Assembly: GCF_007991755.1 (NCBI RefSeq)
Contig: NZ_BJYY01000013.1
Span: forward strand, 310,001 to 374,000
DNA length: 64,000 bases
Direction: 5' to 3'
Origin: Cellulomonas aerilata
GTDB lineage: Bacteria > Actinomycetota > Actinomycetes > Actinomycetales > Cellulomonadaceae
Below are positions 8,123 to 42,275 of this stretch, piece after piece. Under the pieces are notes generated by a model. It was not told where the DNA came from, did no database searches, and saw only the letters and a list, made by a program, of their open reading frames with translations. Made by a program: the position numbers and the translations under genes. Every line of letters begins with the position of its first letter. Position 1 is the first letter of the stretch.

Positions 8123-8905
8123 CTAGAGGCCCTGCCAGGCCGGCTTGGACGCGTAGGTGCTGCGGAAGTAGTCGGCCAGCTGCAGCCGGCTCGCGGCCGC
8201 GTTGTCCACCAGCACGGTGACGTGCGGGTGGTGCTGCATGATCGTCCCCGGCCACATCGCGCTCACCGGGCCCTCCACCGCCTGGTGGACGGCCTCGGCC
8301 TTGCTGCGTCCGGTCGCCAGCATCACCAGGTGCCGGGCCGACATGATCGTGCCGAGCCCCTGGGTGAGGCAGTGCTGCGGGACCTGGGTCACGTCGCCGC
8401 CGAAGAACCGGGCGTTGTCCGCGCGGGTCTGCTCGGTGAGGGTCTTGATGCGCGTCCGCGACGCGAGCGACGAGCCCGGCTCGTTGAACCCGATGTGCCC
8501 GTCGGTGCCGATGCCGAGCAGCTGCAGGTCGACGCCCCCGGCGTCGGCGATCGCCTGCTCGTAGGCGGCGCAGGCGGCGGCCAGGTCCTCGGCCAGCCCG
8601 TCCGGCCCCTGGACCGCGCCGGGTGCGAAGTCCACCCGGGACGCGATCTCGGTCTCGATGACGTTGCGGTACCGCTCGGGGTGGTCCGCGGGAAGCCCCA
8701 CGTACTCGTCGAGCATGAACGCCGTGGCCCGTGCGAACGACAGGCCCGACTGGGTGTGCCGGCGCGCGAGCTCGTCGTACACCTTCAGGGGACTGGACCC
8801 GGTCGCGACCCCCAGGACCGCGTCGGGCTTGCGGCGCAGCAGGGACTCGACGGCGTCCGCGGCGAGCCGTGCGAGCTCGTCCGCCGGGGCGATCACGACC
8901 TCCAT
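8123..8905 (-). CDS. nagB: Glucosamine-6-phosphate deaminase
   Basis: Converts glucosamine-6-phosphate to fructose-6-phosphate and ammonia, feeding amino sugars into glycolysis. 260 residues, the normal length for the monomeric-type family. Landmarks are LGVATGSSPLKVYDEL, the catalytic Asp region FMLDEYVGLP, GIGTDGHIGFNEPGSS with the catalytic His, and MLATGRSKAEAVHQ. It ends 4 nt from the convergent beta-helix gene. No nagA is visible nearby, so it appears monocistronic. Confidence 0.95.
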   Translation of the reverse strand: MEVVIAPADELARLAADAVESLLRRKPDAVLGVATGSSPLKVYDELARRHTQSGLSFARATAFMLDEYVGLPADHPERYRNVIETEIASRVDFAPGAVQGPDGLAEDLAAACAAYEQAIADAGGVDLQLLGIGTDGHIGFNEPGSSLASRTRIKTLTEQTRADNARFFGGDVTQVPQHCLTQGLGTIMSARHLVMLATGRSKAEAVHQAVEGPVSAMWPGTIMQHHPHVTVLVDNAAASRLQLADYFRSTYASKPAWQGL

Positions 8906-9112
8906 CGGGCCACCGTCCCACGCGCGGCGAGGGCCGCGCCAATCGCCGTGGCGGGCCGCCGGGGCGGCCCGGCTCCACCCGCTCGGTCAGCGGCAGCACG
9001 TGCGGGACGTGAGGTGCGCGGCCTGCTCGCCCGTGGCGCCGACGTGGGGTGCGCAGCAGCTCGTCCCCGATCTCGTGCGGACTCCCGCCCAGCACGAGCC
9101 TGGTCGAGCGCG

Positions 9113-10051
9113 TCAGGCGCCGGGCGGGTTCTGCGCCGCGGACGCATCCCGTCCGCCGACGCGCGACGCGAGCCCCATCGCGTCGAACGGAGCGCGCACC
9201 TTCACGTCGTTGTCGAAGTAGACGTACACGTCACGGCCCTGCGGAGCCTCGGGGGGCGCGAGTGCTGCGACGCCCGGCGGTGCGGCCACCGGGCCGCCGA
9301 CGAACGCCTCCCCCGCCATCCAGCCGCGCACCTTCGCGGCCCAGGTGTCCAGGGACGGGTCGTCGTACCCGCTGACGTACAGCTCGGTGTCGCCGTGAAG
9401 ACGCACGTAGACGAAGTCGGACGTGACGTCCTCGAGGTGCGGCCACTTGCCGGCGGTGTCGGCCACGACCAGTGCCACGTCGTGCCGGCGCAGGACGTCG
9501 ACGAGCTCCGGCGTGTCGAACGTGGCGTGCCGGACCTCCAGGGCGTGCCGGATCGGCCGGTCGGCGTCGGTGGTGAGCCACGCGCGGTCGTCCAGGCGCT
9601 CGTCGTGCTCCGTCGCCAGCTGGGCCGCGGCGGTGGTCGTCCGCGGGAGCAGGTCGAAGAACCGGTCGAGTCGGTCGGCGTCGAAGCGCAGCAGCGGCGG
9701 CAGCTGCCAGAGCACGGGCCCGAGCTTGGGCCCCAACGCCAGCGGGCCGGAGGCGAAGAAGTTGGCCAGCGGCGTGCGCACGTCGGCCAGCTTCTTCATG
9801 TGCGTGATTAACCGCGGCCCCTTGACCGAGAACACGAACTCGGGCGGCGTCTGCTCGGCCCACCGGACGTAGCTCTCCGGCCGCTGCAGCGAGTAGAACG
9901 ACCCGTTGATCTCGATGGAGGACAGCAGGCCGGACGCGTGCTCGAGCTCCCGGCGCTGCGGCAGCCCCGGCGGGTAGAACGAGCCGCGCCACGGGGCGTA
10001 CCGCCACCCCGAGATCCCGATGTAGGCGCCCGCCGACACGGTGCTCACCAC
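9113..10051 (-). CDS. DUF72 family protein
   Basis: 312 residues. The family has a TIM-barrel-like fold and no established activity. Hallmarks are YIGISGWRYAPWRGSFYPPG at the N-terminus, SSIEINGSFYSLQ, LGPVLWQLPP, and FVYVRLHGDTELY near the C-terminus, then DVYVYFDNDVKV. The start is GTG at 10051 or the adjacent GTG at 10048; neither has a clear ribosome site of its own. A 40-codon ORF with a strong ribosome site ends inside this start, suggesting coupling. Confidence 0.9.
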   Translation of the reverse strand: MVSTVSAGAYIGISGWRYAPWRGSFYPPGLPQRRELEHASGLLSSIEINGSFYSLQRPESYVRWAEQTPPEFVFSVKGPRLITHMKKLADVRTPLANFFASGPLALGPKLGPVLWQLPPLLRFDADRLDRFFDLLPRTTTAAAQLATEHDERLDDRAWLTTDADRPIRHALEVRHATFDTPELVDVLRRHDVALVVADTAGKWPHLEDVTSDFVYVRLHGDTELYVSGYDDPSLDTWAAKVRGWMAGEAFVGGPVAAPPGVAALAPPEAPQGRDVYVYFDNDVKVRAPFDAMGLASRVGGRDASAAQNPPGA

Positions 10052-10167
10052 CCGCCGGCGAGCACGTCGACGAGCCCCACGCCGTGCGTGCGATGGGTGA
10101 CGACGTCCATGACCCGGCGACGTCCGGTGCGCGCGGCGAGGGGCTGCGCCTCCATGACTGACTTCAC
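10045..10167 (-). CDS. Possible 40-residue protein coupled to DUF72 gene
   Basis: Short ORF starting at GTG 10167 behind a strong GGAGG ribosome site 5 nt upstream. It ends with TGA at 10045-10047, overlapping the GTGGTGA start of the DUF72 gene. The product is basic, with RTGRRRVMDVVTHRTHGVG then LVDVLAGGW. It could be a genuine small protein or a leader that couples translation. No family is recognised. Confidence 0.4.
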   Translation of the reverse strand: MKSVMEAQPLAARTGRRRVMDVVTHRTHGVGLVDVLAGGW

Positions 10168-10326
10168 TGCGCCTCCGGGGTCGGGGTTCGGCGCGGTCCG
10201 CGAGCGCCGGCGGCGTGCCCGACGGCGCGGCGGGGCGGGTGGACCGCGCGGCGCCGAGGCGTGGCGCACGCTACCGCGCGTCCTCGACGGCGGCCCGACG
10301 GCGGGCGCGAGGCGGCCGGACGGCGG

Positions 10327-10659
10327 CTAGAGCGCGTCGAACTCGGTGACGCGCGTGCGCCAGTACTCGGCGCCGTCACGCGTGCGGGTGACGAGGCCGG
10401 CGTCCACCAGGGCCCGGCGCAGACCGACCGGGTCGCGGGTCAGCTCCGCCAGCCGGAGGGTCAGGGCCCGCTCCCCCACCGGGTCGTCGACCGGCAGGGT
10501 GCGGCTGGCGACGTAGGCGAGCACGCGGTCGCGGTCCGCCAGGCGGCGCGGCATCACGGGCAGCGTGCCGTGGCGGAAGAACCGGGCGACCGACGCCGGC
10601 GGGGTGGCCGGCGCCGGGTCGCCGACGCCGGTCGGGTCCGAGGAGCGCGCGCGGTCCAT
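10327..10659 (-). CDS. DUF2087 domain protein
   Basis: 110 residues. The C-terminal 75 residues match DUF2087 by pattern: MPRRLADRDRVLAYVASRTL, ALTLRLAELTRDPVGLRRAL, VDAGLVTRTRDGAEYWRT. This is a winged-helix-like module often fused to transcription regulators or MerR-like proteins, so DNA binding is plausible. The ATG at 10659 sits 7 nt after a TACGCT box, indicating a leaderless mRNA independent of the DUF4334 gene just upstream. Confidence 0.8.
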   Translation of the reverse strand: MDRARSSDPTGVGDPAPATPPASVARFFRHGTLPVMPRRLADRDRVLAYVASRTLPVDDPVGERALTLRLAELTRDPVGLRRALVDAGLVTRTRDGAEYWRTRVTEFDAL

Positions 10660-10666
10660 GCCGCCG

Positions 10667-10672
10667 AGCGTA
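10667..10672 (-). promoter_or_regulatory. -10 box of DUF2087 gene (TACGCT)
   Basis: TACGCT, 7 nt spacer, ATG. Fits the recurrent leaderless pattern. Confidence 0.55.
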
Positions 10673-10759
10673 GGTCGCAGCCCGTGCGGGCGCCGCTGCG
10701 ACGGCTGGGCGGCCGCCGTCGGTGGAGCCTGGCCTCGCCTCCGGCGACACCGGGCGCCG

Positions 10760-11374
10760 TCAGCCCCTCGCAGCCGGGCGACGACGGCGGAGCACGAACA
10801 TCAGGGGCGCCGGCTCGCCGCGGATGTCCGCCGCGCCCAGCAGCAGGTCGGGTGCCACGCGGCGCAGGGCGTCGACGATCGGGACAGCGTCGTAGACCAG
10901 CGCGGCGCTGACCACGCCGCGGGTCTGCACCGACCGGATCCGGCCGGCGGGTCGCGGCGAGCGGAGCAGCGGGACCACCGCGCGGAACGCGGCCGGCAGG
11001 CCCGAGCGGCGCAGACCCTGCGGGAACAGCCGGATGAGCGACACCGGCGCCAGGACCGGGTCGACTGGGACGGGGTCGCCGCGACCGTCGCGGAACAGCG
11101 TCGGCCGGACGTGCTCCGGGTCGTCGACGTCCTTGCCGTACCAGCCCATCGCCTCGAGCAGCCCGTCCCAGGGGTGCCCGGTGTGCCAGCCGGAGCCGTG
11201 CCAGCGGCCCACGACCTCCTCGGGCTCGATCGCGGCGCACCGGTCGAAGAACCGCAGCGCGGTGTCGGCGTCGGTGCCGCGCCGGTGCGCGAGGAGCCAC
11301 CGCTCGGCGGCGTCGTCCGGCGCACCGGGGCCCGGCAGCACGTCGCCGGACGGGACGTGTGCGGGCAGACCCAT
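10760..11374 (-). CDS. GXWXG / DUF4334 domain protein
   Basis: 204 residues. The N-terminal half has LRFFDRCAAIEPEEVVGRWH then GSGWHTGHPWDGLLEAMGWY, the GXWXG signature. The C-terminal half contains RSVQTRGVVSAALVYDAVPI, which matches DUF4334 (YDxxPIxDxFR...). Family members are small cytoplasmic proteins of unknown function. The ATG at 11374 is preceded by a GACGCT stretch, a weaker version of the leaderless -10 pattern. Confidence 0.85.
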   Translation of the reverse strand: MGLPAHVPSGDVLPGPGAPDDAAERWLLAHRRGTDADTALRFFDRCAAIEPEEVVGRWHGSGWHTGHPWDGLLEAMGWYGKDVDDPEHVRPTLFRDGRGDPVPVDPVLAPVSLIRLFPQGLRRSGLPAAFRAVVPLLRSPRPAGRIRSVQTRGVVSAALVYDAVPIVDALRRVAPDLLLGAADIRGEPAPLMFVLRRRRPAARG

Positions 11375-11420
11375 GCGGTGAGCGTCACCCCGCCGGGCGG
11401 GCCCCGCAACCGGCGGCCGC

Positions 11421-13376
<1,956 letters not shown>

Positions 13377-13383
13377 GCCCACC

Positions 13384-13389
13384 AGGGTA
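13384..13389 (-). promoter_or_regulatory. -10 box of recQ (TACCCT)
   Basis: TACCCT, 7 nt spacer, GTG start of recQ. It decides the start against longer upstream reading. Confidence 0.55.
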
Positions 13390-13462
13390 CGAGCCGGTCC
13401 GCGCCGGGGCGGACCGCTGTCGACAGGCGTCGGCTGCCTCGCGAGCGGCCCAGCTGCCGGCG

Positions 13463-13840
13463 TCAGTCGAGCAGGAACAGGCAGAACGGGTGCCCGTCGG
13501 GATCCAGGTGCACGCGGACGTCGTCCTGCGGCTGGTAGGCGGCCAGCTCCGCGCCGGCCTCCGCGGCGTGGGCGCACGCGGCCTCCAGGTCCCGGACGCC
13601 GATGTCGAGGTGGACCGACATCTGCTGGTCGCCCGGGCCGGCCGGCCACACCGGTCGCCGGTACGCGGTCTCCGTCTGGAACGACAGGCCGGCCCCGCCG
13701 TCCGGTGAGCGCAGCGTGACCCAGTCCGGCTCGTCGGTGCCGATCGGCCAGCCCAGCAGCCGCCTGTAGAAGGCGGCGAGGGCGCGGGGGTCGGGCGTGT
13801 CCAGCACGATGCCGGACAGCGTGAGCCGGGGGGCGTCCAT
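13463..13840 (-). CDS. VOC family (glyoxalase/bleomycin-resistance-like) protein
   Basis: 125 residues with the beta-alpha-beta-beta-beta vicinal oxygen chelate layout: [40 protein letters not shown], then [20 protein letters not shown] and [13 protein letters not shown]. The His in SVHLDI and the DPDGHPFC motif are typical metal or fold positions. The substrate is unknown. The ATG at 13840 has GAGG upstream. Divergent from cstA. Confidence 0.85.
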
Positions 13841-13992
13841 GAGGCTCCTCGAGGTCGACGTCGTCCGGCGCAGCATGCCCGCGCCGCCGGTCCGGGCGCC
13901 AGGCAGGCGGGGCCCCGGGCCGTGCCCGGCGGCCCGCCGCGGGGCATTCCGGCGCGCCGTCCCGTCGACGCGAGCGGCGGGGCGCACGTCAC

Positions 13993-13998
13993 TAGGGT
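13993..13998 (+). promoter_or_regulatory. -10-like box upstream of cstA (TAGGGT)
   Basis: TAGGGT 52 nt before the cstA GTG. The leader between carries GGGGGAG just before the start. Confidence 0.45.
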
Positions 13999-14049
13999 GG
14001 GCGACGGTGGCGCCCGACTCCTCGGCCGCACCGATCTCGAGGGGGAGAC

Positions 14050-16341
14050 GTGGGCGCGTACAGCAGTGATCGGCCGGGCCGGGCCGGCCGCGACGTCGGA
14101 GACGTCCTCGAGCAGGACCCCAGCCTTCCGCCGGTCGCCCTGGACGACGACGTCCTGGACGCCCAGGACCGCCGCTGGACCCCCGTGCGCATCGCCGTGT
14201 GGGCCGCGATCGCGCTGCTCGGCGGGGTCGCCTGGGTGGTGCTGGCGGTCGTGCGCGGGGAGACGGTCAACGCCATCTGGTTCGTCTTCGCGGCGGTCTG
14301 CACCTACCTCATCGCGTACCGCTTCTACTCCCGCTACATCGAGAAGCACCTGCTGCGACCCGACGACCGCCGGGCGACGCCCGCGGAGTACAAGGCCGAC
14401 GGCAAGGACTACGTCGCCACCGACCGGCGCGTGCTCTACGGGCACCACTTCGCCGCGATCGCCGGTGCCGGTCCGCTGGTCGGGCCCGTGCTGGCCGCCC
14501 AGATGGGCTACCTGCCCGGGACGATCTGGATCATCGTCGGGGTCGTCCTGGCCGGAGCCGTGCAGGACTACCTCGTCATGTTCTTCTCGATGCGCCGCGG
14601 TGGCCGCTCGCTGGGGCAGATGGCGCGGGACGAGCTCGGCGTCATCGGCGGCACCGCCGCCCTGGTGGCGACGCTCGTCATCATGATCATCATCGTGGCG
14701 ATCCTCGCCCTGGTCGTGGTCAACGCCCTGGCGGAGAGCCCGTGGGGCGTGTTCTCGGTGTCGATGACCATCCCGATCGCCCTGTTCATGGGCTGCTACC
14801 TGCGGTTCTGGCGTCCCGGCAAGGTCACCGAGGTCTCCCTCATCGGCTTCGTGCTGCTGATGGCCGCGATCATCGGCGGCGGCGCCATCGCCGAGACCGC
14901 GTGGGGCGCCGAGCTGTTCACGCTGGACAAGGTGACCATCGCCTGGGCGATCGTCGTCTACGGCTTCGTCGCCGCCGTGCTGCCGGTCTGGCTCCTGCTC
15001 GCGCCGCGTGACTACCTGTCGACCTTCATGAAGATCGGCACGATCGTCATGCTCGCCGTCGCGATCGTCCTGGTCCGGCCGACCCTCGAGGTGCCGGCAA
15101 TCGAGCCGCTCGCCGCCGGCGGGCAGGGCCCGGTCGTCGCCGGCCCCCTGTTCCCGTTCCTCTTCGTCACCATCGCCTGCGGCGCCCTGTCCGGGTTCCA
15201 CGCGCTGATCTCGTCCGGCACGACGCCCAAGCTCCTCGAGAAGGAGCGCCAGACGCGCTTCATCGGCTACGGCGGCATGCTCATGGAGTCGTTCGTCGCG
15301 ATCATGGCGCTGGTCGCCGCGCTCTCCATCGACCGGGGCATCTACTTCGCGATGAACTCCTCGGCCGCCGCGACGGGCGGCACCGTCGAGGGCGCCGCCG
15401 CGTTCGTCAACGGGCTGGGCCTCACCGGGGTCGACGTGACGCCCGAGCTGCTCGCCCAGACGGCGTCCGACGTCGGCGAGGAGTCCATCGTCTCGCGCAC
15501 CGGCGGGGCGCCCACGCTGTCCGTCGGGCTGGCGAACATCATGGCCCAGCTCGTCGGGGGCCGCGGGCTGATGGCGTTCTGGTACCACTTCGCGATCATG
15601 TTCGAGGCGCTGTTCATCCTCACCGCCGTCGACGCCGGCACCCGTGTCGCCCGGTTCATGCTGCAGGACAGCATCGGCAACTTCGTGCCGCGGTTCCGCG
15701 ACACCTCCTGGCGCGTGGGCGCGTGGCTCGCGACGGCGGTCATGGTCGCCGCCTGGGGCGCCGTCCTGCTCATGGGCGTCACCGACCCGCTCGGTGGGAT
15801 CAACACCCTGTTCCCGCTGTTCGGCATCGCCAACCAGCTGCTCGCGGCGATCGCGCTGGCGGTGTGCCTGGCGATCGTCGCCAAGCGAGGCCTGTTCCGG
15901 TACCTGTGGGTCGTGGCGCTCCCGCTCGCGTTCGCGTCGGTGGTCACCATCACCGCGTCGTTCCACAAGATCTTCTCGGACGTCCCGGCGATCGGGTACT
16001 TCGCGCAGAACCGGGCGTTCCGCGACGCCCGGGCGGCCGGCGAGACGACGTTCGGCACGGCCGCCACGCCCGAGGCGATGGACGCCGTCATCCGCAACAC
16101 GATGATCCAGGGCGTGCTGTCGATCCTGTTCGTGACGCTGTCGATCATCGTCATCGCGACCGCGCTGTGGGCCACGTGGCGGGCGTACCGCTCGGGCTCC
16201 AGCGCGACGAGCGAGGACGACGCCGTCCCGTCGCGGATCTTCGCCCCGGCCGGCCTGCTCCCCACACCGGCCGAGAAGGAGCTCGAGACGCAGTGGGCCG
16301 CGGTGCCGGCGGACCGCCGGCCGGTCCGGACGGGGCACTGA
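14050..16341 (+). CDS. cstA: Carbon starvation protein CstA (peptide/pyruvate transporter family)
   Basis: 763 residues. Large inner-membrane transporter; CstA/BtsT relatives take up peptides or pyruvate. Recognised by YRFYSRYIEKHLLRPDD, HHFAAIAGAGPLVGPVLAAQ, the many helices (about 16), LISSGTTPKLLEKERQTRFI and PLFGIANQLLAAIAL. The GTG at 14050 has a GGGGGAG ribosome site. The stop overlaps the ybdD-like start (TGATG). The cstA-ybdD pairing is the normal arrangement in this family. Confidence 0.95.
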   Translation: MGAYSSDRPGRAGRDVGDVLEQDPSLPPVALDDDVLDAQDRRWTPVRIAVWAAIALLGGVAWVVLAVVRGETVNAIWFVFAAVCTYLIAYRFYSRYIEKHLLRPDDRRATPAEYKADGKDYVATDRRVLYGHHFAAIAGAGPLVGPVLAAQMGYLPGTIWIIVGVVLAGAVQDYLVMFFSMRRGGRSLGQMARDELGVIGGTAALVATLVIMIIIVAILALVVVNALAESPWGVFSVSMTIPIALFMGCYLRFWRPGKVTEVSLIGFVLLMAAIIGGGAIAETAWGAELFTLDKVTIAWAIVVYGFVAAVLPVWLLLAPRDYLSTFMKIGTIVMLAVAIVLVRPTLEVPAIEPLAAGGQGPVVAGPLFPFLFVTIACGALSGFHALISSGTTPKLLEKERQTRFIGYGGMLMESFVAIMALVAALSIDRGIYFAMNSSAAATGGTVEGAAAFVNGLGLTGVDVTPELLAQTASDVGEESIVSRTGGAPTLSVGLANIMAQLVGGRGLMAFWYHFAIMFEALFILTAVDAGTRVARFMLQDSIGNFVPRFRDTSWRVGAWLATAVMVAAWGAVLLMGVTDPLGGINTLFPLFGIANQLLAAIALAVCLAIVAKRGLFRYLWVVALPLAFASVVTITASFHKIFSDVPAIGYFAQNRAFRDARAAGETTFGTAATPEAMDAVIRNTMIQGVLSILFVTLSIIVIATALWATWRAYRSGSSATSEDDAVPSRIFAPAGLLPTPAEKELETQWAAVPADRRPVRTGH

Positions 16342-32559: not shown

Positions 32560-33902
32560 GCACCGGCGGCCTCCGCACGGTCGACGAGGTGCGGGTCGAC
32601 CCTGACCGGGCGCGGGTGTACGAGGAGGGCTGGCAGAGCTGGAGCCCCACGACCTGGTACCGCGCGGACGAGACGTCACGCCGGCCGCGGCGGGACTGGC
32701 AGCACACGATGCGCTATCGCGCCGGTGCCGAGCTGCCCGGGCGGGGGTTCCAGGGCTCAGGGCTGCTGGTCCTCGACCCCGGCACGGGTGACCCGGTGCG
32801 CGTCTACGGCGCCGGCTTCTCCCCCGACCACGTGCCGTCGATCCGCGCCGAGCTAGTAGGCGACCGCCTGGTGGTGACCGCCGACGGGGGCGTGACGGCC
32901 CGGACGGCACGCGACGCGACCGCGGGGCTCGCCGACTTCGGGGACCGGTACGCCGCCCAGGCCGGCGCGGTGCCGCGGGCGGCCCCGACGGTGTGGTGCT
33001 CCTGGTACCGGTACTTCCTCGAGGTGACCGAGGCCGACGTCGTGGAGAACCTCGGGGCCATCGGCCGGCACGACCTCCCGGTCGACGTCGTCCAGGTGGA
33101 CGACGGGTGGCAGTCCGGGATCGGCGACTGGACCACGCCGTCCGCCCGGTTCGCGTCGCTGCCCCGGCTGGCGGGCACCATCCGCGCGGCGGGACGTCGC
33201 GCCGGGATCTGGGTCGCACCGTTCCTGGCCGGCTCGGGCAGCGACCTCGCCCGCGAGCACCCCGACTGGCTGGTCGGCGACGCCGGCGTCAACTGGGGGC
33301 AGAGCCTGCACGGCGTCGACCTGACGCACCCGGGCGCGCGCCGGTACCTGGGGGACGCGTTCCGCGCACTGCGCGAGGCGGGCTTCGACTACTTCAAGCT
33401 CGACTTCCTCTACGGCGGCACCGCACCCGGACCGCGGCACGACCCCACGGTCACGCCCGTGGCGGCGTACCGGTCCGGGCTGGAGCTCGTCCGCGACGCC
33501 GTCGGCCCCGACGCCTACCTCGTCGGCTGCGGCGCCCCCCTGCTGCCCAGCGTCGGGCTCGTGGACGCGATGCGGGTCTCCCCCGACACCTTCCACGTGG
33601 ACGCCCAGGACGGGTCCCGGGGGCTGCGCGGGGAGATGGCGACGACGGCGCGTGCCTGGCAGCACGGGCGGCTCTGGGTCAACGACCCCGACTGCGTGGT
33701 CATGCGCGCGTCCTACGCGCTGCGCGAGAGGTGGGCCCACGTGGTCGAGCGGTACGGCGGCCTGCGGTCCTGCTCGGACCGCATCGCCGAGCTCGACGCG
33801 TGGGGGCTGGAGACCACCCGCACGCTGCTCGCCACCGCGCCACCGCCGACGCCGTTCCCGCACACCGTCCCGGCCCCGCCACCACTGGAGCACCGACCAT
33901 GA
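32556..33902 (+). CDS. GH36-like alpha-galactosidase family glycosidase
   Basis: 448 residues, cytoplasmic (no signal). Clan GH-D landmarks: TVWCSWYRYFLEVTEADVVE, VVQVDDGWQSGIGDWTTP, AGIWVAPFLAGSGSDLAREH, HPDWLV, and FDYFKLDFLYGGTAPG, where the KLDF Asp is the predicted nucleophile. The predicted acid/base Asp is near WVNDPDCVVMR. It is shorter than typical GH36 enzymes (about 700), lacking the long N-terminal beta-sandwich. It probably cleaves an imported alpha-galactoside or related glycoside. Start GTG, overlapping the dehydrogenase stop. Confidence 0.85.
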   Translation: MSTGGLRTVDEVRVDPDRARVYEEGWQSWSPTTWYRADETSRRPRRDWQHTMRYRAGAELPGRGFQGSGLLVLDPGTGDPVRVYGAGFSPDHVPSIRAELVGDRLVVTADGGVTARTARDATAGLADFGDRYAAQAGAVPRAAPTVWCSWYRYFLEVTEADVVENLGAIGRHDLPVDVVQVDDGWQSGIGDWTTPSARFASLPRLAGTIRAAGRRAGIWVAPFLAGSGSDLAREHPDWLVGDAGVNWGQSLHGVDLTHPGARRYLGDAFRALREAGFDYFKLDFLYGGTAPGPRHDPTVTPVAAYRSGLELVRDAVGPDAYLVGCGAPLLPSVGLVDAMRVSPDTFHVDAQDGSRGLRGEMATTARAWQHGRLWVNDPDCVVMRASYALRERWAHVVERYGGLRSCSDRIAELDAWGLETTRTLLATAPPPTPFPHTVPAPPPLEHRP

Positions 33903-33927
33903 CGTGTCCTGGCACCCGGTGCGGACG

Positions 33928-35250
33928 ATGAGCGCCGCGACCTCCTCCGGCAGGACGCCCTCGGACCTGACATCGGCCGCCGTGCGCGTCCTGGAGAGGA
34001 ACTGGACGGGCTCGCACACGCTGCCGGCCACCGGCCTGTACCCGCACCAGTGGAGCTGGGACTCGGCCTTCATCGCCGTCGGGCTGCGGCACGTCGCCCC
34101 CGCCCGCGCCCAGCAGGAGCTGGAGTCCCTCACCCGCGGGCAGTGGGCGGACGGGCGGATCCCGCAGATCGTCTACGACGTCCGGCGCGACGACGACTAC
34201 GCTCCCGGTGCCTCGTTCTGGGCGTCGCCGCGGATCGACCCGCCGCCGCCCGTCCCCACGGCCGGGCTGGTGCAGCCGCCCAACCACGCGTGGGCCGCCT
34301 GGCTGGTGCACCAGGCGGACACCGCCGCGTCGGTCGCGCGCGGCTTCCTGCCGCGCCTGTACCCGCGCCTCGTCGCCTGGCACGAGTACCTGCGCACGCG
34401 CCGGGACCACGGCGGACGGGGGCTCGCGAGCGTCATCCACCCGTGGGAGTCCGGGATGGACAACCTCCCGCTGTGGGACGGCGCTCTGGCGCCCGTGCCC
34501 GGGACCCCGACGACCGTGCTGGGGCGTCCGGACCTCCAGCACGCGGACCTGACCGAGCGGCCGAGCCAGAAGGAGTACGGCAAGTACTTCTGGCTCGCCG
34601 AGCACTACCGCGACCGCGGCTGCGACGACACCGACGGGCTGGACCGGTTCGTCGCGGAGGACCCCACCTTCAACACGCTGTGGGCGGCCTCGGAGGAGGC
34701 GCTCGCCCGCATCGCCGAGGTCGCCGGCGCAGACCCCGAGCCGCACCTGGCCCGGGCCGCCGCGATCACCGCCGCGCTCGAGAGCCTCTACGACGACCGG
34801 CTCGGGCTGTACGTGGCGCACGACGTCGTGCGGGACGAGCCGATCCGCAAGGCGACCGTCTCGGGGCTCACGCCGCTGCTGCTCGCCGACCTCCCGCACG
34901 CCGAGCAGGTGCTGGCGACGCTGGACGGCCCACGCTTCCTGGGCGACGACCCGCTCATGGTGCCCAGCTACGACGTCACCGCGGACGACTTCCGGCCCTC
35001 GCAGTACTGGCGCGGGCCGGCCTGGTTCAACATGACCTGGCTGGTCGTCCAGGGGCTGCGCCGGCACGGGCGGACGGGCACCGCGGACGCGCTGTCCGCG
35101 CACACGCGACGGCTGGCCGTCGAGCACGGGTTCCCCGAGTACGTCCACCCGTTCACCGGCGCCCCCCACGGGGCCCGCAGCTTCAGCTGGACGGCCGCGC
35201 TCGCGCTGGACCTCGAGGCGTCCGACGGCGGGGTGGCGGGGCCCGCGTAG
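33928..35250 (+). CDS. MGH1-type (GH63-like) glycoside hydrolase
   Basis: 440 residues, (alpha/alpha)6 barrel type: LYPHQWSWDSAFIAVGLRHV, ARAQQELESLTRGQWADGRI, PPNHAWAAWLVHQ, HPWESGMDNLPLWDGAL, QYWRGPAWFNMTWLVVQGL. These resemble mannosylglycerate/glucosylglycerate hydrolases and GH63 relatives. No signal peptide. Last gene of the sugar operon, 25 nt after the GH36 stop. The ATG at 33928 is used; a GTG at 33904 in frame would add 8 residues. The substrate is probably a glucosyl- or mannosyl-compound, which is inference. Confidence 0.85.
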   Translation: MSAATSSGRTPSDLTSAAVRVLERNWTGSHTLPATGLYPHQWSWDSAFIAVGLRHVAPARAQQELESLTRGQWADGRIPQIVYDVRRDDDYAPGASFWASPRIDPPPPVPTAGLVQPPNHAWAAWLVHQADTAASVARGFLPRLYPRLVAWHEYLRTRRDHGGRGLASVIHPWESGMDNLPLWDGALAPVPGTPTTVLGRPDLQHADLTERPSQKEYGKYFWLAEHYRDRGCDDTDGLDRFVAEDPTFNTLWAASEEALARIAEVAGADPEPHLARAAAITAALESLYDDRLGLYVAHDVVRDEPIRKATVSGLTPLLLADLPHAEQVLATLDGPRFLGDDPLMVPSYDVTADDFRPSQYWRGPAWFNMTWLVVQGLRRHGRTGTADALSAHTRRLAVEHGFPEYVHPFTGAPHGARSFSWTAALALDLEASDGGVAGPA

Positions 35251-35483: not shown

Positions 35484-38400
35484 ATGCCCGCTGTCCGCAG
35501 CCGCTCGTCCCGTGCCCTGCTCCTCCCCGCCCTCGCGCTCAGCGTGCCGCTCGCTCTCGGGACGGTCGGCTGGCTCCAGCTCGCCCACGGGCTGCAGCCG
35601 ACCGCCCAGGCCGCCCCCCACGAGACGGCCGCGAGGCCGCCGGACCCCGGCGGCCCGGACGGGGCCGTCCACCAGCACGTCGACCCCGCGCTCGCGGCTC
35701 CCCCGGCGATCGCGACCGGGACGGCCGCGGCCGGTCACGACCACGCCGACCCCGCCACCGCCGCCGTACCGCACGACCACGCCGACCCTGCCGCCGCTGC
35801 CGCACCGCACGACCACGCCGACCCCGCCGCCGCTGCCGCACCGCACGACCACGCCGACCCGGCCGCCGCTGCCGCCCCGGCGCCGACGGATGCCGGCGGT
35901 CACGTGGACCACACCGCCATGGCGATCCTCTCCGGTCAGATGGACGGCCCCTCGCTGCCCACCAACGGCACGGACGACGCCGCCGCGGCGGCCGCTCCCA
36001 CCTCCGCGCGCGGCCACCACGACATGGCCGGGATGAGCGCGCTGACCCACTGGCTCCGGGACGGCCTGCTCGCCGTCCCGGTCGTGCTCGCGGCGCTGCT
36101 GGCCGGCGGCGCGGTGTCCGCCGCCGCCGCCCGCAGGGGCGCCGCCGTCCGCGGGCTGCGCCGCTCGGCCACGGCGTCCGCCGCCGGACGCGGCGGGGTC
36201 GCGGCGCTCGCGCTGGCCGTGGCCAGCCCCGGCCACGGGCTGCTGTTCGAGGAGCCGGTCAACGGCCCCGTCGCGCACGCCGCCGAGGTGTTCGTCCTGG
36301 CACTGCCGGCCACGGTGCTCGTCGCGATGCTCGCCAGCGTCACCGTCGGCGCAGGCCGGGCGGTGCGGACCGAGCTCGCCCGGCGGGCCGGCCCCGCGCG
36401 TCCCCGCCGCGCGGCGGTGGCGGGCGTCGTCGCCCTCGCGGTGGGTGGTGTCTCCCTGGTCATGATGCCGACCGCGCAGGCGGCGTCGAGCGCCGGGGTC
36501 TGCCCCGCAGGGTCGCGCTCCATCACCTACGACATCTCCGCGTTCCGGATCTCGATCCCCCTCAACGGGTGGGGTGACCGGCTCCCGGACGGCACGATCT
36601 ACGCGCTGCAGGGCAAGGACGCCCGGGTCGGCAAGACCCAGATGCTCGCGAACCCGAACCTCACCCAGCCCCTCGTGATCCGCGCCAACGTCGGCGACTG
36701 CGTCACCGTGGTGCTCAAGAACGACCTCACCCGCCGCGTCGGCGTCCACCCGGACGGCCTGGTGCAGCTCGACCCCGAGGCCTCCGACGGCGCACGGGTC
36801 GGCAAGAACCCGGACACCACCGTCGCCCCGGGCGGCTCCCGCACCTACACCTGGTACGCGGACAAGCAGGGCGAGGCACCGATCAGCGACATCGCCAACG
36901 TCGACACGGCCGACCCCCGCCACACCACCGTCCAGGACGGGCTGTACGGCGCCGTCGTCGTGCACCCCAAGGGCTCCGTGTGGCGCAACTCCACCACCGG
37001 TGCCGACCTGCTGGCCGGCGGACGCGCGGTCGAGACCCAGACCTACGCCGACGTCGTCACCCCGACCGGCGCGCTGCGGTCGTACGCCATGGTGCTGATG
37101 GACGAGAACGAGGACGTCAAGGACCGCAACGGCAACCAGCCGACGTACCCCACCACGGGCCTGCCGGACTCGACGTTCGGCATCAACTACCGCTCCGAGC
37201 CCCTGCGCAACCGCATGCGCGCGATCCTGGAGCACCGCGGGACCGTCACGCCGGAGAACCCGAACGGCGTCGCCAAGACCATCACGCTGCCCAACGGCAA
37301 GGTCTTCACCCCGGCGGACCACTTCTGCGACGGCTACGTGCCCGAGCTCGACCGGGTCGTGGACGACCCGGGCGCCAAGTGCCTGAACGAGGAGTCGCAC
37401 CTGCAGTCGTGGGTGTTCGGCGACGAGGGCAAGCTCGTCCGCAAGGCGGCCGAGGGCAAGATCACCGTCGACTCGGACAACCTCATCCCCAAGGCCTACG
37501 TCGGTGACGCCGTGCAGTTCCACGTCGTGCACCCGGGCGCCAAGGAGAGCCACCCGTGGCACCAGCACACCCAGCGCTGGTTCAAGGACCCCAACAACCC
37601 CGACTCCCCGCGCAACGACGTGCAGTCCATCGGTCCGGGCGAGGGCTACCGGATGGAGATCGAGGGCGGCGCCGGCGGCACCCAGCGCACCGCCGGTGAC
37701 TCGATCTTCCACTGCCACCTGTACCCGCACTTCGCCCAGGGCATGTGGGGCCACCTGCGGATCTTCGACAAGCTCCGCAACGGCACCCAGTCCTACGCGG
37801 ACGGCACGCCCATCCAGGCGCTGCGCGAGCTCCCCAGCCGCGTGGGCCAGACCGCGGCCCCGACCGCCGCGCAGCCCGGCTTCCCGCTGTTCGTCAAGGG
37901 CGACTTCGCCCAGCGGGCGTACCGCGCGCCGAACGCCGTCGTGAAGGACCAGTTCGCCGCGATCCGCCGCCCCGGGGACGCCCCTCGCGGCCCCACGGCG
38001 CTCGAGGCGGCCGGCCTGCCGGCGCTCGACCCGGCCAAGCCCGGCAACGGCTACATCGACCCGTGCCCGGCGGGCGCCCCGACCCGCACCTACCGCCCGC
38101 ACGTCGTGGACGTGCCCATCAGGTACAACAGCGCCGGCTGGACCGACCGTCAGGGTCGCGTGTACGTGGAGGAGTCGCAGGCGGCCGCCGTCCGGGCCGG
38201 GACCTCAGCACCCGAGCCGTTCACGATCCGCGCCCGGCTCGGTGAGTGCGTCCAGGTGTTCACCACCAACGACCTCCACCTCGACGAGGACCCGGCCGTG
38301 CCCCTCGACCACGTGAACCGGCTCGACGGCGACTACATGCACGAGGAGGAGACCAGCGAGGTCTCCACCCACGTGCACCTGGTCAAGTTCGACGAGCTCG

Positions 38401-40538
38401 CCTCCGACGGCACGAGCGTCGGGTGGAACTACAGCTCGTCCGCGATGCCCGGCCAGACCTACGGCTACCGGTGGTTCATCGACCAGCCGCTGCGCACGGT
38501 GTTCTTCCACGACCACCAGTACGCGAACCTGCACCAGCAGAAGGGCCTCTTCGCCGCGCTGCACGTGGAGCCGGCCGACGCGACCTGGCACGACCCGAGG
38601 ACCGGCGCGCCGACCGACGGCACCGGGACGGTCGCCGACATCCGCTCCGCCAGCGGGCCGGACTTCCGCGAGATCAGCGTCTTCCACCAGGACCGCATCC
38701 CGATGTGGAAGGACGGCGGCGCCGGCGACCCGGTCAACCCGCCGCCCGCCGTGGACGACTACGGCGCGGACCAGGGCGGGTACGCCCTCAACTACCGCAA
38801 CGAGCCGTTCCAGATCCGGGTGAAGAAGGGCGTGGCGGGGCCCAAGGGCGACCCGGCGTACGTCTACTCCTCCACCGTGCACGGCGACCCGTCGACCCCG
38901 GTGTTCCGGGCCTACACCAAGGACCCGGTCGTCGTCCGCAACGTCGACGGGAGCCACGAGGAGGTCCACACCTTCAACGTGCACGGGCACCGGTGGCTGA
39001 ACGAGCCGGACAACGCCCGCTCCACGATCGTGGACAACCAGAGCCTGTCCGTGGCCGAGTACTACAACTACGAGGTGAGCGGCGCCCGCGTCGGTCGCAA
39101 GTCCCGCACGGCGGACAGCACCCTCAAGCAGGCGCGCAACGACCAGGCGAACGGTGCTCCCAGCATCCTGGCCGGTGGCGCCGGACGCCCTGGTGACTAC
39201 CTCTACGGCTCGACGCCGCTGGACGACCAGTGGCTGGGCATGTGGGGCATCTTCCGGGTGCCGGACGGAGCCGTGGGCGACCTGCAGCCCCTGCCCGACC
39301 GCGGTGCGCCCGCAGCGGCGGCCACCCCGTGGCCCGCGCTCCAGCCGGGCCAGGCGCTCAACGCCAAGCCGCCGAACGCGGTCAACACGTGCCCCGTCGG
39401 CTCCCCGCTGCGCACCTACGACGTGGCGGCGATCAACAAGGACATCGTCTACAACGCGAAGACCGGGGACCACGACCCCGCCGGTGCGCTGTACGTCCTG
39501 AGCGCGGACGAGGCCGCGGTGCGGGCCGGGACCAAGCCCACCGAGCCGCTCTTCATCCGGGCCAACGCGGGCGACTGCGTCGCGGTGACGCTGACCAACA
39601 GGCTCCCCGCCGGCGGCCTGCCGGCGCACACCGGTGACGTCCCGCTCCCCGCGGACGCCCCGTTCCCGTCCGGCAACCGGGTGTCGATCCACGCCGCGCT
39701 GCTCGAGTACGACGTCAAGCGGGCCGACGGAGCCACGGTCGGGCACAACTTCGACCAGACCGTGGCGCCGGGGCAGTCGATCACCCAGTACTGGTACGTG
39801 CCCGAGGAGCTGGCCGGTGCCAGCGTCACCCTCGCCGACTTCGGCGACCGTCGCGGCCACCGGCACCACGGGCTGCACGGCGGGCTGCTGGTCGAGCCGA
39901 AGGGCTCGACCTGGACCCACCCGCAGACCGGCGCCCCGGTGACCACCGGCGCGAGCGCGGTGATCCGGTGGACCGACGCCGCCGGCAAGCCGCAGGTGTA
40001 CCGCGAGCACGCCCTGGAGTGGCAGGACGGGCTCAACCTCCGCACCGCCTCGGGGGCGGCCATCGCCCCGGCCGGTCCGGTCGACGACCCGTACGACCTC
40101 GGCAACCGCGGGGTCAGCTACCGCACGGAGCGGTTCGCGCCTCGCCTCGCCAAGGACCCGGCGCAGTCGAACGTCTTCAGCTCCGTCGTCCACGGCGACC
40201 CGGCCACACCGGTGATCCGTGCCTACGTCGGGGACCCGGTCCGCATCCGGCTGCTGGCCAGCAGCGACCGGGGACGCGCGCACACGTTCGTGCTGGGCGG
40301 GCACGGCTGGAACTACCAGCCTGCGGACCCGGCGTCGACGGTCGTGAGCGCGCGGGGTCTCCTGGTCGCCAGCCAGGCGTCCTCCCACGACCTCGTGGGC
40401 GGGGCCGGTGGGCCGCGTGGCACGAGCGGCGACTTCCTCTACCGCGACGGCAACCAGGCGAACCAGACCAACGCCGGGCTGTGGGGGCTGCTGCGGGTGC
40501 ACAGCACCACCCAGGCCGACCTGCCGAGGATCCGGTGA
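35484..40538 (+). CDS. Giant membrane-anchored multicopper oxidase (MnxG/MofA-like)
   Basis: 1684 residues. A signal/membrane segment (about 11-30) is followed by four HDHADP repeats (85-132), membrane helices near 193-215, 267-290 and 311-334, then three two-cupredoxin units starting at CP motifs at residues 340, 861 and 1303. Copper motifs: HPWHQH (H690, H693, H695), HCHLYPHFAQGM (H743, C744, H745, H749, M754), then HVH (963-965) and HDH (1009-1011). Classical C-terminal motifs thus precede the N-terminal ones, as in the Mn(II) oxidases MnxG and MofA. A trinuclear site between domains 2 and 3 is inferred. The ATG at 35484 has GGAG upstream. The substrate is not proven. Confidence 0.85.
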   Translation: MPAVRSRSSRALLLPALALSVPLALGTVGWLQLAHGLQPTAQAAPHETAARPPDPGGPDGAVHQHVDPALAAPPAIATGTAAAGHDHADPATAAVPHDHADPAAAAAPHDHADPAAAAAPHDHADPAAAAAPAPTDAGGHVDHTAMAILSGQMDGPSLPTNGTDDAAAAAAPTSARGHHDMAGMSALTHWLRDGLLAVPVVLAALLAGGAVSAAAARRGAAVRGLRRSATASAAGRGGVAALALAVASPGHGLLFEEPVNGPVAHAAEVFVLALPATVLVAMLASVTVGAGRAVRTELARRAGPARPRRAAVAGVVALAVGGVSLVMMPTAQAASSAGVCPAGSRSITYDISAFRISIPLNGWGDRLPDGTIYALQGKDARVGKTQMLANPNLTQPLVIRANVGDCVTVVLKNDLTRRVGVHPDGLVQLDPEASDGARVGKNPDTTVAPGGSRTYTWYADKQGEAPISDIANVDTADPRHTTVQDGLYGAVVVHPKGSVWRNSTTGADLLAGGRAVETQTYADVVTPTGALRSYAMVLMDENEDVKDRNGNQPTYPTTGLPDSTFGINYRSEPLRNRMRAILEHRGTVTPENPNGVAKTITLPNGKVFTPADHFCDGYVPELDRVVDDPGAKCLNEESHLQSWVFGDEGKLVRKAAEGKITVDSDNLIPKAYVGDAVQFHVVHPGAKESHPWHQHTQRWFKDPNNPDSPRNDVQSIGPGEGYRMEIEGGAGGTQRTAGDSIFHCHLYPHFAQGMWGHLRIFDKLRNGTQSYADGTPIQALRELPSRVGQTAAPTAAQPGFPLFVKGDFAQRAYRAPNAVVKDQFAAIRRPGDAPRGPTALEAAGLPALDPAKPGNGYIDPCPAGAPTRTYRPHVVDVPIRYNSAGWTDRQGRVYVEESQAAAVRAGTSAPEPFTIRARLGECVQVFTTNDLHLDEDPAVPLDHVNRLDGDYMHEEETSEVSTHVHLVKFDELASDGTSVGWNYSSSAMPGQTYGYRWFIDQPLRTVFFHDHQYANLHQQKGLFAALHVEPADATWHDPRTGAPTDGTGTVADIRSASGPDFREISVFHQDRIPMWKDGGAGDPVNPPPAVDDYGADQGGYALNYRNEPFQIRVKKGVAGPKGDPAYVYSSTVHGDPSTPVFRAYTKDPVVVRNVDGSHEEVHTFNVHGHRWLNEPDNARSTIVDNQSLSVAEYYNYEVSGARVGRKSRTADSTLKQARNDQANGAPSILAGGAGRPGDYLYGSTPLDDQWLGMWGIFRVPDGAVGDLQPLPDRGAPAAAATPWPALQPGQALNAKPPNAVNTCPVGSPLRTYDVAAINKDIVYNAKTGDHDPAGALYVLSADEAAVRAGTKPTEPLFIRANAGDCVAVTLTNRLPAGGLPAHTGDVPLPADAPFPSGNRVSIHAALLEYDVKRADGATVGHNFDQTVAPGQSITQYWYVPEELAGASVTLADFGDRRGHRHHGLHGGLLVEPKGSTWTHPQTGAPVTTGASAVIRWTDAAGKPQVYREHALEWQDGLNLRTASGAAIAPAGPVDDPYDLGNRGVSYRTERFAPRLAKDPAQSNVFSSVVHGDPATPVIRAYVGDPVRIRLLASSDRGRAHTFVLGGHGWNYQPADPASTVVSARGLLVASQASSHDLVGGAGGPRGTSGDFLYRDGNQANQTNAGLWGLLRVHSTTQADLPRIR
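35736..35879 (+). repeat. 36-bp tandem repeat encoding HDHADP units
   Basis: Four in-frame 36-bp copies (residues 85-132) each encode HDHADP followed by an Ala-rich AAAAAP spacer. The copies are near-identical, indicating recent expansion or slippage. The paired His/Asp residues could bind copper or other metals. Confidence 0.9.
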
Positions 40539-40725: not shown

Positions 40726-41430
40726 ATGAGGGATCTGTCAGCGTCGACCCAAGACGATCTGGAGGTCGTGGTGCTGTTCACCGAACCGACCACCCGCGCC
40801 CGCGTGCGCGGCACCCTGGAACGGCAGGGCTACCGGATCGCGCAGCCCGACCGGCTGCTGGAGTGGGTCACCGGCAGGCGACCGCACGTGCTGGTGGTGA
40901 CCGGGGACGACCCGCCGGCGCAGCGGGCGCGAGCAGCGGTGATGCGCGCCGCCCCGGAGGCCGCGTGCGTCGTCCTCGCCACGGACCCCACGCCCGGCCG
41001 GTACCGCGAGCTGATGGAGACGTGCACCGCCGTCCTCCCCGAGTCCGCACCGCAGGAGGACGTCGCCGTGGCGGTCGCCGGGGCGTGGCGCGAGCTGAGC
41101 TGTCTGCCCCGGTCGGCCGCCCGGGCCCTGTCCGGCGACGGGTCCACCGCGCCGTCGCCGGCCGTGACCGTGGCCCCCCGTGAGGCGGGGTGGCTCCGGG
41201 CCCTGGCCGACGGCGCCACCGTCGCCGGTCTCGCCCGGACGGCCGGGTACTCCCCCCGCGAGATGTACCGCCTGCTGAGCGCCCTGTACGCCCAGCTCGG
41301 CGCAGCCGGCCGGACCGAGGCGCTGCTGCGGGCGGACCGTCTGGGGTTGCTCTCGGTGACGGCCCCGGGTCCGGATGCGTCCGTCCCCCGGCCGCATCCC
41401 GCGTCGTCGTCGCGGAGCGTGACGTCATGA
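40726..41430 (+). CDS. LuxR-type regulator with degenerate receiver domain
   Basis: 234 residues. The N-terminal 120 form a receiver-like alpha/beta domain (LEVVVLFTEPTTRARVRGTL, PHVLVVTGDDPPAQRARAAV), but the usual phospho-acceptor Asp at the end of strand 3 is Thr (VVTGDD). The C-terminal part has a LuxR/NarL-type HTH (WLRALADGATVAGLARTAGY, SPREMYRLLSALYAQLGAAG). This suggests an orphan, phosphorylation-independent regulator. The ATG has GGGGG upstream; the stop overlaps the rhodanese start by 4 nt. It lies behind the oxidase terminator, so control of that gene is only a guess. Confidence 0.75.
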   Translation: MRDLSASTQDDLEVVVLFTEPTTRARVRGTLERQGYRIAQPDRLLEWVTGRRPHVLVVTGDDPPAQRARAAVMRAAPEAACVVLATDPTPGRYRELMETCTAVLPESAPQEDVAVAVAGAWRELSCLPRSAARALSGDGSTAPSPAVTVAPREAGWLRALADGATVAGLARTAGYSPREMYRLLSALYAQLGAAGRTEALLRADRLGLLSVTAPGPDASVPRPHPASSSRSVTS

Positions 41431-42275
41431 CCGCCGACGTCGTGAGGTCGCTCGTGTCGACCGCGTGGCTCGCGGAGCACGCGGCGGACCCCGGCGTCCG
41501 GGTCCTGGAGGTGGACGGGGAGGCGGCCCGCTACTACGACGGCCACGTCCCCGGCGCCCTGCCCGTGGACTGGCTGGACGACCTGCACGCCCCGGTGCGC
41601 CGCGGCTTCGCGGACGCACCGGCGCTCGCCGCCCTCCTCGGCCGCCTCGGGGTGACCCCGACCACGCACGTCGTCCTGCTCGGCGACGCGCACAACACCT
41701 ACGCGGCCAGCGCCTTCTGGCTGCTGCGCTACTACGGCCACGGGCCGCTCAGCCTGGTCGACGGCGGCCGGCGGGCGTGGGAGGTGGAGGGCCGGCCGCT
41801 CAGCACGGAGGTGCCGGAGCCCGCCCCGGCCGACTACCCGGAGCCGTCCCCCGTGTCGTCCGTCCGAGCCAGCCGGGACGACATCCTCCAGCGCTTCGTC
41901 CCGGGGCTGCCCGGGACCGCGCTGCTCGACTGCCGGACCCAGATCGAGTACGAGGGGCACGGTGCGCGCGGCGTGGACCTGCCGGTGGAGCGCCACCGGG
42001 TGCCCGGCCACATGCCCGGTGCCCGCAACCTCGACTCGATCGACGTGCTGGACGAGGCGACGCACCGGTTCCGTCCCCTGCCCGAGCTGCGCGCCATGTT
42101 CGCCGACCGCGGCGTGGAGCCCGACACCGAGGTGGCGCTGTACTGCCGGCTGGCGGAGCGCAGCTCGCTGCTGTGGTTCGCACTGCACGAGGTCGTCGGG
42201 CACGGGCGCGCGCGCAACTACGACGGCGGCTGGGCCGAGTACGGCAGCCTCGTCGACGTGCCGGTGGAGCGCTAG
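41427..42275 (+). CDS. Sulfurtransferase (tandem rhodanese domains)
   Basis: 282 residues with two rhodanese modules. The first (about 1-125; VRVLEVDGEAARYYDGHVPG, NTYAASAFWLLRYYGHG) lacks the catalytic Cys. The second (about 150-280; LLDCRTQIEYEGHG, GHMPGARNLDS) carries the active loop ALYCRLAERSS with Cys followed by Arg...Arg. This fits thiosulfate or mercaptopyruvate:cyanide sulfurtransferases, here of the thiosulfate type by loop shape (tentative). Co-transcribed with the preceding regulator by a 4-nt overlap. Confidence 0.9.
   Translation: MTADVVRSLVSTAWLAEHAADPGVRVLEVDGEAARYYDGHVPGALPVDWLDDLHAPVRRGFADAPALAALLGRLGVTPTTHVVLLGDAHNTYAASAFWLLRYYGHGPLSLVDGGRRAWEVEGRPLSTEVPEPAPADYPEPSPVSSVRASRDDILQRFVPGLPGTALLDCRTQIEYEGHGARGVDLPVERHRVPGHMPGARNLDSIDVLDEATHRFRPLPELRAMFADRGVEPDTEVALYCRLAERSSLLWFALHEVVGHGRARNYDGGWAEYGSLVDVPVER

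Follow-up and report, generated by a model that had tools for sequence, protein, structure and literature searches.

The question raised by this locus is whether a very large multicopper oxidase, first read from the letters of the DNA as resembling the bacterial manganese oxidases, belongs to that class, and whether Mn(II) is the substrate that it oxidizes. The gene, P0001, occupies positions 35484-40538 (+ strand) of the window (the whole 64-kb stretch of DNA that was analysed), and its translation gives 1684 residues with a single terminal stop. The start codon is an ATG with GGAGA 5′ of it and, in a genome of 74.5% GC (a value that, with the relatives of the genome, suits an actinobacterium), the GC content by codon position shifts frame at the proposed start and stop; thus, the start at 35484 fits. 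An extended frame starting at 34050 would run over the glycoside hydrolase gene that precedes P0001 and is itself coded in a different frame. All coordinates given in the sequence-only reading were correct.

The protein was compared with solved structures using phmmer. Residues 356-1683 align with MnxG (9bxa_A; E = 3.5e-219, 733.9 bits), which is the catalytic subunit in the Mn(II) oxidase complex of Bacillus (PDB 9bxa), and two-domain laccases and clotting factors scored below 40 bits. The alignment with MnxG is collinear and in three pieces, and the last 312 residues of P0001 align separately to MnxG 80-356, 528-791 and 914-1214. This gives three two-domain units, equivalent to the six cupredoxin domains that had been predicted from the translation. 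Against family models, P0001 scored only 9-18 bits with CueO, laccase and CopA, for which the cut-offs are 479-615 bits (CueO, 9.1 of the 525 bits needed; laccase, 9.7 of 558.9), and membership of the CueO or three-domain laccase families is not supported by these scores. Pfam returned Cu-oxidase_3 plus a sub-threshold Cu-oxidase_2 only. The NCBIfam model NF041487, for Pseudomonas putida MnxG/McoA, recognizes P0001 in ten stretches with a total of 316.9 bits, far under its cut-off of 3100 bits. Since MnxG of Priestia megaterium also falls short, at 332.6 bits, the cut-off was dropped as a test of MnxG function, and the miss excludes that one equivalog only. A profile search against MnxG and CueO had been suggested as a check on the likeness to MnxG; the scores were 316.9 and 9.1 bits, and the likeness to MnxG is far the stronger. 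On sequence, membership of the MnxG-type six-domain family could hardly be more certain; the homology gives the class of the enzyme and does not establish Mn(II) oxidation.

The putative copper ligands lie in four motifs, each found at the residues originally reported and assigned by alignment to MnxG and to other giant oxidases. In domain 2, HPWHQH (residues 690-695; 37551-37568, + strand) supplies the type 1 (T1) ligand His690 and the trinuclear ligands His693 and His695, and HCHLYPHFAQGM (743-754; 37710-37745, +) supplies T1 ligands Cys744, His749 and the axial Met754, together with the trinuclear ligands His743 and His745. The other trinuclear ligands come from domain 3, in HVH (963-965; 38370-38378, +) and HDH (1009-1011; 38508-38516, +). 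Eleven T1 and trinuclear ligands (H690, H693, H695, H743, C744, H745, H749, H963, H965, H1009 and H1011) are intact in P0001 and are unchanged in ten P0001 orthologs and in 24 of 25 aligned giant oxidases. The sole exception among the 25 is a Pseudonocardia plasmid oxidase (L046, 6019-9789), in which the T1 cysteine and several other ligands are lost in the alignment and which is probably inactive or repurposed. The HCH motif is absent from the other two-domain units of P0001, implying a single T1/trinuclear set. His749 corresponds to Ala340 in the 9bxa chain, at the place of the T1 histidine of HCHLYPHF; Priestia MnxG has a histidine at this position, as P0001 does, and we take Ala340 to be a deliberate H340A mutation. 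Position 754 is Met in P0001, in its two Micromonosporaceae neighbours and in Priestia MnxG, so that a Met axial ligand is shared with Bacillus-type MnxG, and is Phe in the remaining orthologs and in a paralog in the same genome. Phe at the axial position tends to raise the T1 potential in multicopper oxidases.

The motif order was described as permuted in the sequence-only reading. This holds with respect to laccases; as an oddity of P0001 it does not, because in the six-domain oxidases of bacteria, archaea and algae the two domain 2 motifs precede the two domain 3 motifs (PMC3600357). Bacterial six-domain oxidases generally have the T1 copper in domain 2 and the trinuclear site between domains 2 and 3, whilst in chordate six-domain proteins such as ceruloplasmin the trinuclear motifs are in domains 6 and 1 (PMC3600357). 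P0001 follows the bacterial rule, with T1 in domain 2 and trinuclear ligands drawn from both domain 2 and domain 3 (690-754 and 963-1011), and it shares this placement and the motif order with Bacillus-type MnxG. AlphaFold models of residues 338-1300 and 636-1052, made from 11-sequence alignments, had low confidence (mean pLDDT 44.1 and 39.4); alignment to the solved 9bxa structure predicts that the motifs meet at one three-dimensional site.

The MnxG proteins of Bacillus sp. PL-12 (9bxa) and of the Priestia megaterium plasmid are both like P0001 in having homology over the full length of the core and six cupredoxin domains. The Priestia plasmid carries an mnxE-mnxF-mnxG set (NZ_CP085418.1, 6348-10675; L043), for which the annotation reads hypothetical proteins and multicopper oxidase domain protein. 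Its mnxG lies after mnxE and mnxF and the product scores 1705 bits against 9bxa; the E and F products match chains of that structure (E = 2.7e-27 and 1.8e-17), and the core of this MnxG is ∼43% identical to that of P0001. MnxE and MnxF are needed for active Bacillus Mnx (PMC5622069). The lack of adjacent MnxE/F-like genes noted at the outset stood up: none was found in the 64-kb window, in a search that included a positive control, and a genome-wide search, to which that control did not extend, gave no match. MnxG works with MnxE and MnxF and has no N-terminal membrane/His-rich extension; P0001 has such an extension, and MnxE and MnxF were not found.

The neighbours of P0001 in the window (a glycoside hydrolase directly 5′ at 33652-35250, a rhodanese and dehydrogenases) carry no metal clue, and the gene context offers no clue to the substrate. 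A response-regulator-like frame and a double rhodanese protein, with no visible link to the oxidase, lie 3′ of it at 40776-42275 (+). MofA of Leptothrix discophora, compared by description only, is likewise a giant oxidase with four copper motifs (PMC8218464), but it is in an operon with mofB and mofC, and no mofB- or mofC-like genes neighbour P0001, which is flanked by the glycoside hydrolase and rhodanese genes. Directly 5′ of the Saccharopolyspora and Dactylosporangium orthologs are genes for small exported proteins of 193-203 residues that contain a Met-rich stretch (L013, 6729-7310; L017, 7018-7629) and are candidate partners. When considered as MnxE/F analogues, these gave no meaningful match to the 219-residue protein next to the paralog, and no clear counterpart was found in the P0001 genome (best E 0.11). 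A conserved exported PKD-domain protein is encoded divergently beside the Micromonosporaceae orthologs (L009, 5266-7632, − strand; L015, 5276-7564, − strand); it is absent beside P0001, and matches the P0001 genome in its repeat part only.

Two features were overlooked in the sequence-only reading: the His-rich, putatively membrane-associated N-terminus of P0001 and a further giant oxidase encoded by this genome. The N-terminal extension comprises residues 1-337 (35484-36494, +) and has about five hydrophobic segments on hydropathy (11-29, 195-213, 229-247, 269-287 and 310-328). No Pfam match was obtained for these ∼335 residues, and AQA-ASS, a possible signal peptidase site, closes the extension just before the core. 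Repeat analysis and translation revealed four 36-base repeats (35736-35879, +) coding for HDHADPAxAAxP, a His-rich region predicted to be outside the membrane. On the same crude hydropathy scale, between four and seven N-terminal hydrophobic segments were counted in each of the ten orthologs. Sequence identity over the extension is low (20-48%), and His residues number anywhere between 1 and 19; a His-rich region is therefore not a general feature of the orthologs. Priestia MnxG has no hydrophobic or His-rich extension. The hydropathy pattern points to a polytopic N-terminus, and the class, ligands and N-terminal extension of P0001 are established at the level of the protein sequence.

The ten orthologs have 61-82% core identity and come from Jidongwangia, Amorphoplanes, Cryobacterium (five), Saccharopolyspora, a Frankiaceae MAG and a Dactylosporangium MAG. 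In an IQ-TREE tree made without MofA, McoA or Pseudomonas MnxG sequences, they form one clade with P0001 (support 100/100), apart from Priestia MnxG and the haloarchaeal, Rubrobacter and proteobacterial proteins. The branches linking this clade to Nonomuraea and Priestia MnxG were poorly supported, and the distance of P0001 from Bacillus-type MnxG is about that of other giant oxidases. Among 395 genomes sampled across the class, one other had a close match (G777, 861 bits), and across the phylum any match to the MnxG model at E 1e-10 was seen in 9 of 395 other genomes; oxidases of the P0001 type are rare among the actinobacterial genomes sampled. No relatives were found in viral contigs. Gene neighbours vary between ortholog groups, and transposase-like fragments adjoin the Cryobacterium copies, suggesting that these genes have moved between genomes. 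P0001 is a rare actinobacterial representative of a known oxidase class, probably with its own membrane anchor.

We propose that P0001 is an exported, membrane-held oxidase of the MnxG class with Mn(II) as its most likely substrate, and give this reading a probability of ∼0.5. The polytopic N-terminus would anchor the oxidase at the outer face of the membrane, or the oxidase would be released from there. Single electrons from the substrate would enter at the T1 copper in domain 2 (H690, C744, H749 and axial M754) and would travel via the His-Cys-His sequence to the trinuclear site at the domain 2/3 interface (H693, H695, H743, H745, H963, H965, H1009 and H1011), where O2 would be reduced to water. 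The His-rich repeats probably bind copper or another metal. The least certain step is the substrate, which homology suggests to be extracellular Mn(II), oxidized to Mn(III) and then to Mn oxide. Those relatives that have been defined biochemically are Mn oxidases, and we know of no other substrate for MnxG-class oxidases, which makes Mn(II) the best guess. Mn(II) oxidation has been reported in soil actinobacteria, including Cellulomonas (PMC3772008). The missing MnxE and MnxF and the divergence from Bacillus-type MnxG count against Mn(II). Since P0001 belongs to a clade of its own, at a distance from Bacillus-type MnxG like that of other giant oxidases, its substrate may have drifted, and that Mn(II) is the main physiological substrate has roughly an even chance.

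The second giant oxidase, encoded on contig C12 (G000:C12:222000-241999, 8532-14378, − strand; L039), is an MnxG-like protein of 1948 residues with 39.6% core identity to P0001. It is of the same class, keeps all ligands and has N-terminal hydrophobic segments, but falls in another clade, with Rubrobacter, has Phe rather than Met as the axial T1 residue and carries C-terminal SdrD-like and chitobiase-like domains that P0001 does not have. A pair of giant oxidases is likewise present in P. putida GB-1, where both are Mn oxidases (PMC11930936). The paralog gene is in a row with genes for the 219-residue protein, CopD, a CotA-like multicopper oxidase and a signal peptidase, and the same order is found in another genome of the genus (G003, L040). 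This setting would suit an oxidase of the same class and architecture whose physiological substrate is Cu(I), for copper detoxification, or Fe(II), with Mn oxidation incidental, as would the His-rich repeats of P0001 and the presence of copC/copD or a metal P-type ATPase gene near the relatives from Rubrobacter, Priestia and Hymenobacter. However, P0001 itself has no copper-handling neighbour, the contexts of its orthologs vary, and the Priestia locus with copC is a true mnxEFG locus, so nearby copper genes are no argument against Mn. We consider a Cu(I) or Fe(II) substrate a real possibility, if an unlikely one.

It is doubtful that P0001 oxidizes phenolics or lignin fragments, directly or via Mn(III), in a laccase-like role that assists an actinobacterium in degrading plant polymers. 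The adjacent glycoside hydrolase gene and the cellulose-degrading lifestyle inferred in the sequence-only reading fit such a role, but the Cryobacterium, Saccharopolyspora and Micromonosporaceae orthologs have other neighbours, and laccase and ascorbate oxidase models gave P0001 only 9.7-13.9 bits. It is very improbable that P0001 is a degenerate or structural copper protein of six domains that lacks oxidase activity: the Pseudonocardia relative indicates that decay occurs among giant oxidases, but all ligands are present in P0001 and ten orthologs, and the P0001 frame is open with a strong codon signal.

In the literature library that was searched, no paper was found that assigns an MnxG-class enzyme to Mn(II)-oxidizing actinobacteria. 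A more specific form of the Mn(II) reading, held tentatively and judged unlikely as it stands, is that P0001 is a self-contained, membrane-anchored actinobacterial Mn(II) oxidase whose polytopic, His-rich N-terminus, fused to the core, takes the place of MnxE and MnxF. If true, the formation of Mn oxide by actinobacteria would have an identified enzyme. Concrete candidates for actinobacterial Mn(II) oxidation are P0001 and the ten orthologs, with cultured carriers in Cryobacterium, Saccharopolyspora, Amorphoplanes and Jidongwangia, and an oxidase that possibly works without MnxE and MnxF would be more tractable experimentally than the complex from Bacillus.
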